From the NCBI GenBank assembly GCA_013151235.1, contig JAADIO010000070.1, positions 1-14,081 on the forward strand: a DNA stretch of 14,081 nt. The letters run 5' to 3'. Positions 6,188-11,989 of this stretch are shown here, one piece after another. Position 1 is the first letter of the stretch; each line of letters starts with the position of its first letter. Position numbers and translations under genes: made by a program. A model generated the notes under the pieces. That model had not been told where the DNA came from, ran no database searches, and worked only from the letters and a program-made list of their open reading frames with translations. The stretch is from Deltaproteobacteria bacterium. Lineage in GTDB: Bacteria > CG2-30-53-67.

Positions 6188-7396
6188 TCAGGGCAGCTCA
6201 TAGATCAACAGGCGGGTTTTTTGCCGGAAAGGAATCATTCCCTCCCGGAGGAAGAGGATCAGATCCCTTTTCCCGTTGTTATCGATATCTCCCACGGCCT
6301 GGTCGATAATTTTTCCGAAGATCGGCTGGGTATCCCAGTACTCCCTGACCTGACCGTTGGCCAGGACAAGATCGGCTACGCTCTCCCGGGTCAACAGACT
6401 CCTGATGAGCCGGACATTCAGGATCGGCCGCTGCAGGATCAGGAGTAACTCATCCCGGCCGTCCTGATCGTAGTCACCGGAAAGCATGCGATTGGGAATC
6501 TTCAATTTTTTCTTCAGCGTCCCCCCTGCGGGATTTTGCACACGGATCTTGTATGTGTGAAAATCGGGAAGTCTGAAAGCATCGATTTTTGTGATCTCCC
6601 GCAGGTCGGGGGCATAGAAGCGGAGTTGCCCCGTTCCGGAGAGGCTGTAATAGGCGGAGCCGTCGGCATCCCGTGAATAGTGGCTTCCCGCAGCATAGAG
6701 AGCCGCTCCGGGCGGGAAATTCAGCGGTCCTGCCCGCTGGATCCGTCCTCCCTCCCAGTGGTAGCGGCCGATCTTGTCCCGGCCCGGGGTAAAAGACTGT
6801 CCCGCCAGGAAAGGATGATCTTCCGGATCCCGAAGGATCTGCAGATAGACGCCGGGAATGACCGCCCTCCGAAAGTGTTTCTCCTGAAAGGTCAGGATAC
6901 CGGAGAAGAGTTGATGGTTCCGAATTCCCCGGTAAAGGATTTCATCCCTGCCGTCGCAGTTAAGATCACCTGCGTCGAGGGAGAGGTAACGGATCTTCCT
7001 GTTATCTTGGTTGACGGCATCGAGGGGAGATTCGGCGTCTTTATGTTTCCAGATCCGGAAGGAAAAGAAACCCTTTTTCTCCTGCTCTTTCGTGCCGGGA
7101 GTTAGGAACCGTCCGTATTTCCACTGTACGATACGAAGGATCCTTCCATCCGTGGTGATCAGTTCGTTTTCCCCATCCCCGTCGAGATCTCCGATGACCG
7201 CGGAGCGGACCGGGAAAGGGAGCACTTTTTCCTTCCACACTTTCTGCATAACCTGTTTCCGGATATAGGTCGGGATGACGGCCGGGAAGTCGTTTTTCTT
7301 CACGGTGTTCCCTGCGGCATGCGCGACGACCGGCACCGGGAACCGGAGCAGGGGAAAGAGGCCGAGGAGGACAAGGATCAGCAGGATACGTTTCAT
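6188..7396 (-). CDS. Exported FG-GAP/VCBS repeat protein, function unknown
   Basis: The 402-residue product begins MKRILLILVLLGLFPLL, a Lys/Arg then hydrophobic signal peptide, with probable cleavage after AHA near residue 27. There is no lipobox Cys, so a soluble periplasmic or secreted protein is expected. Four FG-GAP-type calcium loops of the GD-x-D/N-xx-G form are visible: GDLDGDGENELI (69-80), GDLNCDGRDEIL (143-154), GDYDQDGRDELL (307-318) and GDIDNNGKRDLI (369-380). Their spacing suits blades of an integrin-like beta-propeller; a partial RDADG copy lies near 242. Such propellers usually bind ligands or scaffold; no catalytic motif was seen. The ATG overlaps the GH57 stop as ATGA, with GGGAG upstream, so translation is coupled. 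An exported partner of a signal-less GH57 enzyme is odd, and the substrate or ligand is unknown. Confidence 0.8.
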   Translation of the reverse strand: MKRILLILVLLGLFPLLRFPVPVVAHAAGNTVKKNDFPAVIPTYIRKQVMQKVWKEKVLPFPVRSAVIGDLDGDGENELITTDGRILRIVQWKYGRFLTPGTKEQEKKGFFSFRIWKHKDAESPLDAVNQDNRKIRYLSLDAGDLNCDGRDEILYRGIRNHQLFSGILTFQEKHFRRAVIPGVYLQILRDPEDHPFLAGQSFTPGRDKIGRYHWEGGRIQRAGPLNFPPGAALYAAGSHYSRDADGSAYYSLSGTGQLRFYAPDLREITKIDAFRLPDFHTYKIRVQNPAGGTLKKKLKIPNRMLSGDYDQDGRDELLLILQRPILNVRLIRSLLTRESVADLVLANGQVREYWDTQPIFGKIIDQAVGDIDNNGKRDLILFLREGMIPFRQKTRLLIYELP

Positions 7397-9594
7397 GGAG
7401 ACTCCCTCAGGGTTTCGGTTCGATTCTCAGTCGTTTCCCCCTGCCGTATTGAAAGATCACTCATTTCCATGTTGAGTTGCAGGAGGGCTTCTTCCCCCGG
7501 GGCCAGACGCATTTCCCAGTGCAGAAGAAGGCAGGAACCCTGATAGATTTTCTCAAAGCCTCCTTCCGACTGGGAGACGGTTTCGATCGGAAAGCGCCAA
7601 AGGCCGGCCGGTTGCCGTGCAGTGATCCCCCACCGAATGCCGCTCCATTCATCCGTCAGGACGAGGCGTTCCACTCCGTCCATCGCTCCCGTTCCGGCAA
7701 GATGAGGGGGAACCGGTTTCTCCCCGTTGATCCGGTAGTAACGGTCCGGGGCATTGCCGGCCAGCAGGGTGATGTTGAATTCAATCCCGAAGCGGCCGGT
7801 AAGATCGTCCGGTCCCGTGTTGCGGATGCTGTAATCGATTGTCACCGACGAAACCCCGGCGGTTGCGTGGATGGTTTTTGTCACCCGGACTGTTTTCGGC
7901 CTCCCGGCCCCCTGCGCGGAACGGACGGCGCCTTTCCGGGTCAGCGAGAGACCGGTCCCCTTCCCGGTGGTCGCGAGGGAGGCGGTGTAGGCTCCGGCTA
8001 CGAAGTCTCCCTCCTCATCGTATTTCCCTTGCTGAAAGGCCTCCATGGATGTTTTGTCCGGGAAGAAATGGTCGATCAGGGAATGTCGGGGATAGGGATC
8101 ATAAACAATCCGTTCCGCCAGTCCTTCTTCTTTCGCCATGACCTGATGATGAATGGTCTGCACACCCCCCTCCTGCGGAGCGGTGAGGGCCCGGCTGATC
8201 TCCTGATGATAAAATTCAGGGATCCGGGTCAGGGTATCCTGCAGGTTGAAGGAGCGGGGTTTGAAGTCGAGGCCGATGAGTGTGCCGCCCTGGTGGGGGG
8301 CGAAGATCATCGTATAGCTTTCCGAGTTCAGAATCATCTCTTCAGCGCCGTCTTTGTCGAGATCGGCATGAACGGTGTCCAGCCAGACCGACCGGCCGTC
8401 ATGCAGGAGGGTGTCGGCGATGGCCTCGGCCCGGATCAGGTGACGGTAGATGCCGGCACGCAGGTGGGGCAGGTAGAGCCCGCCGAAGACACCGTGCCAG
8501 TAGGCATCGTTGCACTGTCCCTTCCACAGTTCATTGAGGGCGGTCTCTTTCTCCTTTCCGTCAGGGAGGTGGTGAACCTTGTCGCTGACAAAAAGCATCT
8601 TTTTGTGCATCCGGTTGCTCTCCGGATATTTGGAAAAGAAGTTTCGCCAGAAACCACCGGCCAGGAAGGGGCGGGCCATTTCTTCCAGACCGGCTTCGGC
8701 GAGCCGATCTTTCAAGTGCCGGAACTCTTCCGAAGCGTTCTGCAGCAGCGACCATTCGGCCATTTCCATATAGGAAGAGGTGGGAAGATAGATCCGTCCT
8801 CGGGGGGCGTGGCTTTGAAGGACCTCGGAGAAGAGTTTCGGCTCAATCCAGTCCCGGTTTTCGTCCAGGGCCTCGAAAAAGCGGGAGAGCCAGCCTTCCT
8901 CGTAGACGGAATGATAGGTCCCGGGCCATACGCCGAACTTTTCTCCATCGTCTCCCATAATCGCAAGCGGGGTCTCCGAGGTATTCCGCATTTCGTCAAG
9001 GTAGGCGAGGGTTTCTTCCACCGGGTGGAAAGGAATCAGGTAGCGCAGGCGTTCGCTGCCGGGAAAGACATTCAGGATCTTTCCCTTTTCTTCCGTGATG
9101 TAATATCCGTGAAGGGACTCCCCTCGAAGACCGGCCATGATAAAATGGTGATCATCGATGACGATATACTTTGCCCCGGCGTTATGGAGCGATTCCGCCA
9201 GGTGGGGCTCCCAGACCCGTTCCGCCAGCCACATCCCCTTCGGTTCGGTCCGAAAGGTCTCCCGGAGAAAAGAGGTCAGCTTGCTCATCTGTCCCTGTTT
9301 GTCCGATTCATAGAGCGTGGTCAGGATCGGTTCGTAAAACCCTCCGGACATGAGTTCGACCTGATTTTTTCCCACCAAACTGCAAAGTTCTTTGATGAAT
9401 TCCGGATGGTTTTCCTTCAGCCATTCCAAAAGGAAACCGGAATAGTGGAGAGTCACACGTATATGGGGGTGTTCCGTCAGTGCGCGGGCGAAGGGAAGAT
9501 AAGCTTTTTGGTAAGAGGTTTCCAGTACCTGGGAGAAGTTGTCTACCGGTTGATGATTGTGGATTGCAAGAAGGAGTGTAACCGGTTTTGCCAT
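7393..9594 (-). CDS. GH57 family 4-alpha-glucanotransferase / alpha-amylase
   Basis: This 733-residue protein belongs to glycoside hydrolase family 57, the retaining enzymes acting on alpha-1,4-glucans. Conserved regions are HNHQP (12-16), GGFYEP (84-89), WLAERVWEP (122-130) with the nucleophile E125, and GDDGEKFGVWPG (214-225) with the acid/base Asp (215/216). QCNDAYWHGVFGGLYLPHLR (360-379) and the DLDKDGAEEMIL segment (411-422), followed by a beta-rich C-terminal part, match the DUF1925/DUF1926 layout of Thermococcus-type 4-alpha-glucanotransferase. It is somewhat longer than that enzyme (659 residues). There is no signal peptide, so cytoplasmic action on glycogen or maltodextrin is expected. 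Transferase versus hydrolase cannot be decided from sequence. The ATG at 9594 has CGGAG upstream and a TATAAT promoter. Its stop overlaps the FG-GAP gene start. Confidence 0.93.
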   Translation of the reverse strand: MAKPVTLLLAIHNHQPVDNFSQVLETSYQKAYLPFARALTEHPHIRVTLHYSGFLLEWLKENHPEFIKELCSLVGKNQVELMSGGFYEPILTTLYESDKQGQMSKLTSFLRETFRTEPKGMWLAERVWEPHLAESLHNAGAKYIVIDDHHFIMAGLRGESLHGYYITEEKGKILNVFPGSERLRYLIPFHPVEETLAYLDEMRNTSETPLAIMGDDGEKFGVWPGTYHSVYEEGWLSRFFEALDENRDWIEPKLFSEVLQSHAPRGRIYLPTSSYMEMAEWSLLQNASEEFRHLKDRLAEAGLEEMARPFLAGGFWRNFFSKYPESNRMHKKMLFVSDKVHHLPDGKEKETALNELWKGQCNDAYWHGVFGGLYLPHLRAGIYRHLIRAEAIADTLLHDGRSVWLDTVHADLDKDGAEEMILNSESYTMIFAPHQGGTLIGLDFKPRSFNLQDTLTRIPEFYHQEISRALTAPQEGGVQTIHHQVMAKEEGLAERIVYDPYPRHSLIDHFFPDKTSMEAFQQGKYDEEGDFVAGAYTASLATTGKGTGLSLTRKGAVRSAQGAGRPKTVRVTKTIHATAGVSSVTIDYSIRNTGPDDLTGRFGIEFNITLLAGNAPDRYYRINGEKPVPPHLAGTGAMDGVERLVLTDEWSGIRWGITARQPAGLWRFPIETVSQSEGGFEKIYQGSCLLLHWEMRLAPGEEALLQLNMEMSDLSIRQGETTENRTETLRESP

Positions 9595-10244: not shown

Positions 10245-11885
<1,641 letters not shown>

Positions 11886-11906
11886 GGTGCAACCTCCTGC
11901 GAACAA

Positions 11907-11935
11907 ATTATAGACAGGGAAGGAAAAAAGATCAA
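11907..11935 (-). promoter_or_regulatory. hflX: Sigma70-type promoter of hflX with very short leader
   Basis: On the minus strand TTGATC (11935-11930), a 17-base spacer and perfect TATAAT (11912-11907) give a near-consensus promoter. Transcription would start near 11900, immediately before AGGAGG (11898-11893). The mRNA leader is then only about 15 bases. This placement excludes an hflX start codon upstream of about 11898. Confidence 0.75.
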
Positions 11936-11989
11936 GGCGGACCTTGCGACAATCGGTCGCTGCTTGCCGCAAGATTCGGAAAGAAATAT

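Follow-up and report, generated by a model that had tools for sequence, protein, structure and literature searches.

To our knowledge, very few bacterial genes keep a start codon other than NUG over long evolutionary times. The closest described case is infC, which begins at AUU, AUA or AUC (together AUH; ATG, GTG and TTG are called canonical here) and is autoregulated by IF3. Through the start codon, IF3 represses both infC (AUU) and the Streptomyces gene sigR (GTC) (PMC5472188), and 30S complexes formed on non-canonical codons are destabilised by IF3 (PMC5472188; PMC8266586). In Staphylococcus aureus, conserved AUA and AUU starts with extended Shine-Dalgarno (SD) sequences give about 10% of the output of AUG, as determined in poor medium (PMC13009471). 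IF3 is the anti-association factor for the 30S subunit, and HflX is an alternative, stress-related splitting factor (PMC9067457).

The hflX gene described here shares with infC an AUH start, a strong nearby SD and conservation across phyla; infC, however, is a case of self-control, whereas hflX would be controlled by a partner factor, its response to IF3 being inferred. Like sigR, it combines a non-NUG start with an extensive SD, is stress-related and lies outside infC, but sigR uses another codon and is known from Streptomyces, whereas the hflX pattern spans many phyla. The Staphylococcus genes ccpN (AUA) and cvfC1 (AUU) (PMC13009471) also have a conserved AUH codon and an extended SD, with reporter output about 10% of that from AUG, and differ from hflX in their narrower reported conservation and unrelated functions. 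The AUU start of pcnB, likewise an AUH codon, has been interpreted as a low-output setting, and lepA encodes, as hflX does, a GTPase that acts on the ribosome, although the lepA cases are isolated predictions. The hflX-linked uORF motif (PMC8632094) is a different, leader-peptide motif found in Bacillales. Within the open-licence papers searched, we found no earlier report of a non-NUG hflX start, which is weak evidence of absence; a conserved AUH start behind a strong SD is a known kind of arrangement, and what appear to be new, within those papers, are the gene concerned, the range of phyla and the functional connection with IF3.

The window, that is, the whole stretch of 14,081 nucleotides that was analysed (contig JAADIO010000070.1 of the deltaproteobacterial assembly GCA_013151235.1), carries hflX, encoding the ribosome-splitting GTPase, at 10245..11885 on the minus strand. 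Membership in the HflX family follows from a match to NCBIfam TIGR03156 above the cut-off (E 1.5e-133) and from the Pfam order GTP-bdg_N, GTP-bdg_M, MMR_HSR1 (G domain); the protein is of the long form, with about 190 residues N-terminal of GTP-bdg_N. From the ATC at 11883..11885 the frame is open for 546 codons (546 residues) to a TGA at 10247-10245. Read base by base on the minus strand, the upstream order is TTGATC (-35 element, 11930..11935), a 17-nt spacer (11913..11929), TATAAT (-10 element, 11907..11912), 8 nt, AGGAGG (SD, 11893..11898), 7 nt and ATC-AAG-AAT-ATC, which confirms both the ATC with AGGAGG 7 nt upstream and the promoter just before AGGAGG that a sequence-only reading of this DNA had pointed out. 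To judge from these elements, a sigma-70-type promoter ends just upstream of the hflX SD. If transcription begins 6–8 nt past the -10 element, an expectation drawn from the promoter consensus only, the leader would be about 14–16 nt long, with little in it apart from AGGAGG. An SD precedes the start, so the mRNA, earlier described as nearly leaderless, is by this prediction short-leadered rather than leaderless. Folding of the first 72 nt after transcription would begin at the expected +1 is no more stable than that of shuffled sequences (z -0.55) and leaves the start codon unpaired; leader structure was dropped as a control element of hflX for this reason. The next in-frame NUG downstream is the ATG at 11471-11469, codon 139, and not a codon past residue 200 as had been stated. 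Upstream, the nearest is a TTG at 11904..11906 and a further TTG lies at 11972; such codons had been placed in or before the promoter, and the nearer one in fact follows the -10 element directly, although it is still 5' of the expected transcript start.

Both the -35/-10/SD/ATC arrangement and the ATC start are shared by the sister species and two genomes of the same family (L006, L007). In the sister species TATACT, AGGAGG and ATC stand at matching places; the -35 element reads TTGATC in L003 and TTGAAC in L006 and L007, all three have TATACT with 17-nt spacing, and AGGAGG is conserved in relatives. L006 and L007 read AGGAGGTCnnnTAG-ATC-AAG, with an in-frame TAG touching the ATC, so that in-frame ribosomes cannot arrive from upstream there. 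The TTG at 11906-11904 is missing from the sister species, and no conserved residues were found upstream of the ATC among the relatives compared. An alignment with related hflX genes, which the sequence-only reading had proposed as a check on its start, thus came out in its favour. In other genomes the homologous codon is ATC, ATA or ATT, and in genus g2 of the same family hflX starts at UUG.

A first search of 60 genomes gave a match in 59, part of the weaker matches being other GTPases, and an N-terminal alignment without the start codon was then used to scan public genomes, which added 80 long-form loci. By their record names these belong to Nitrospirota, Nitrospinota, Deltaproteobacteria, Myxococcota, Acidobacteriota, Tectomicrobia, Omnitrophota and Hydrogenedentota. 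Long-form HflX is present in 72 of a 336-genome sample; widening by the phylum of G031 and by the relatives of G101 gained almost no new genomes. Most of the genomes surveyed are drafts from uncultured organisms (MAGs), with taxon names as in the records, and codon calls with a weak SD are less certain. Among 144 distinct long-form loci the called starts are ATC 51, ATA 23, ATT 23, ATG 25, TTG 12 and GTG 5, with none called in 5, so that AUH accounts for 97/144 loci and AUG for only 25. Four of the five uncalled loci (L060, L073, L074, L129) read, by eye, ACG at a fitting place, with a clear SD before it in L073 and L129; these would seem to widen the set of weak start codons.

A rule-free count of the codon five before a conserved Gly gives AUH 83, ATG 17, TTG 7 and GTG 2 (n=144), and where it is not AUH the codon is often another start codon. 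Adjacent upstream codons are AUH at a background of about 4.6% per codon, compared with 83/144 at the start codon, and AUH at this position is far beyond chance. No ATG, GTG or TTG occurs between the upstream stop and five codons past the conserved Gly in 73/144 loci, and in 71 of these 73 an AUH codon falls between positions -7 and -3, for which the chance would be about 1e-45 if the loci were independent; they share ancestry, and p-values that assume independence overstate the significance. In another phylum, sampled later, the pattern was replicated in 13/13 new genomes. On a tree of 130 N-terminal domains, the start must have switched between NUG and non-NUG no fewer than 13 times. The Desulfobacteria have ATG in 9/9 cases, mostly without an SD (AUG starts lacking one were seen in L046, L064, L083, L108, L111 and other Desulfobacteria), and hflX begins with UUG in Corallococcus and with TTG in E. 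coli; the few short-form genes examined mostly have AUG, and a Geobacteraceae MAG (L088) has a long-form hflX with an ATA start. In L078 and L087 the start reads ATGA and could overlap the stop of the upstream gene, a form of coupling. As lineages with UUG and AUG exist, the AUH start, as called from these sequences, is not obligatory.

The codon class goes together with the strength of the SD. An SD of at least 5 nt precedes 76/97 AUH starts and 2/25 AUG starts (p = 9e-11), and the median anti-SD duplex is -9.5 kcal/mol for AUH versus -2.7 for AUG. In 18/96 AUH loci a TATAAT-like hexamer ends 20–29 nt before the start, whereas 10-nt bins farther upstream contain about 3 each, which indicates that other genomes too have such a short leader. 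The gene of the window meets the sequence criteria for an AUH-start gene (a homologous start that is AUH, no usable NUG and a normally spaced SD), its own upstream in-frame TTG codons being judged non-functional.

The parallel with infC, which the sequence-only reading had drawn from E. coli, is borne out within the source genome, where infC starts GGAGGTGGTTCT-ATA behind GGAGGT; most genomes sampled have AUH in infC. In two same-family genomes whose hflX reads TAG-ATC (G005, G003), infC (L191, L192) may start at CTG behind GGAGGTGAAT. If starts are called simply by the best SD, several loci of era and obgE come out as AUH, yet all of these have canonical starts nearby, and the absence of a canonical start was for that reason chosen as the measure. 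Over at most 30 of the same genomes, a nearby canonical start is lacking at 14/19 loci for hflX and 18/30 for infC, and among the controls at 0/28 for obgE, 0/30 for frr and 0/22 for era (0/80 together; p = 3e-13). A scan of 0.72 Mb (27%) of the source genome for an SD core followed by AUH in long open frames recovered infC and hflX. Most of its other matches look like ORFs in the wrong frame or are preceded, within a few codons, by an ordinary ATG or GTG start, leaving one undecided ATT case. On this 27% of the sequence, the idea that the genome uses AUH starts habitually was rejected. On G000 contig 30 (L264:2641, minus strand), a gene for a membrane-anchored, peptidase-like protein may start at ATT behind AAGGAG; there is no canonical start upstream and the next is 17 codons downstream.

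The N-terminal domain of long-form HflX (11292..11882, minus strand; about 190 residues) has no Pfam match. It contains an invariant HTH...D motif (H94, H96, D106), and its predicted structure has a pLDDT of 89.7. Judged by title, almost all of the 50 listed VIA-align entries are JAMM/MPN (JAB1) proteins or complexes that include such a protein, but Z does not exceed 7.7 and the best Foldseek E-value is 3.5e-3. On the strength of this model, the domain may be a JAMM-like one that has become fused to HflX. Beside hflX on G347 contig 40, an 896-codon frame (6332-8326; L368/L367/L369) holds three more tandem copies of it.

Could the ATC be something other than a start? The source is a 73-contig draft genome, in which a sequencing or assembly error of ATG is conceivable, but the same codon class occurs in more than 100 independent genomes, and we regard this possibility as negligible, refuted by conservation. 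An ordinary isoleucine codon, with the true start at the in-frame TTG codons that do exist upstream at 11906 or 11972, is very improbable: the TAG directly before ATC refutes it for L006 and L007, 71/73 loci without a canonical start have AUH at this place while the upstream residues are unconserved, and the TTG at 11906, itself not conserved, sits between the -10 element and the expected +1. Slightly harder still to credit is initiation at the ATG at 11471, which is the first ATG, GTG or TTG downstream and would leave 138 codons untranslated. Against it, dN is far below dS in codons 2–25 between sister genomes (0.08 vs 0.29; 0.06 vs 0.30), the elements GLK, RQ, HTH and DDLTD before residue 139 are almost invariant, and the residues before that point form a confidently predicted fold. 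These comparisons exclude, or all but exclude, a sequencing error, an isoleucine codon and a start further downstream, and the AUC at 11885-11883 is, as a codon call, well supported. No transcript, ribosome-profiling or N-terminal peptide data are available from these organisms, and AUH initiation rests on sequence.

We think it probable that hflX is translated from AUC with low output and gated by IF3. Sequence comparison gives the codon and how it is conserved, along with the SD, the layout of the promoter and the likeness to infC; the low output, the gating and its purpose are inferred. AUC pairs imperfectly with the initiator tRNA, and the strong SD would hold the mRNA on the 30S subunit, although most of the complexes would not survive rejection by IF3; the rate of HflX synthesis would therefore be low and would go up when the supply of IF3 falls short of that of 30S subunits. 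HflX splits 70S ribosomes, and IF3 stops the freed 30S subunits from rejoining; the cell would thus make more of the splitting factor when IF3-bound free subunits run short. By analogy, HflX is inferred to be kept low and IF3-gated as are infC and Streptomyces sigR. It cannot be ruled out that the AUC start is real and only sets a low constitutive level, IF3 varying too little to regulate; this proposal, modelled on that for pcnB and motivated by the harm that an excess of a ribosome-splitting factor would do, seems to us unlikely, if still to be reckoned with. Lineages without AUH do use other weak combinations (AUG without an SD, UUG with one), and what has been conserved may be a weak initiation and not the codon as such; E. 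coli hflX, too, uses UUG. Yet the pairing of a strong SD with AUH persists from phylum to phylum, when a weaker SD would have been as easy a route, and the same design is found in infC of the same genomes, for which feedback is established in E. coli (PMC5472188). The conservation of the start codon fits a low-output setting as well as active feedback by IF3, and sequence alone cannot separate the two.

If IF3-gated translation from AUC is accepted for hflX, these observations suggest that the cell couples HflX synthesis to its check on the accuracy of start sites, the control by IF3 being an inference without expression data. A wider version, which we hold to be an even bet, is that HflX and IF3 form one translation-level circuit across many phyla, both mRNAs carrying IF3-rejected AUH codons behind strong SDs, so that a fall of IF3 per 30S subunit would raise both and restore the pool of free subunits. 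The start of hflX would rank among the most widely conserved non-NUG starts after infC, and gene finders limited to ATG, GTG and TTG must misplace the N-terminus of HflX in these phyla. HflX and IF3 work on one and the same subunit cycle, and the finding raises a testable question, namely whether IF3 sets the level of HflX through its start codon.
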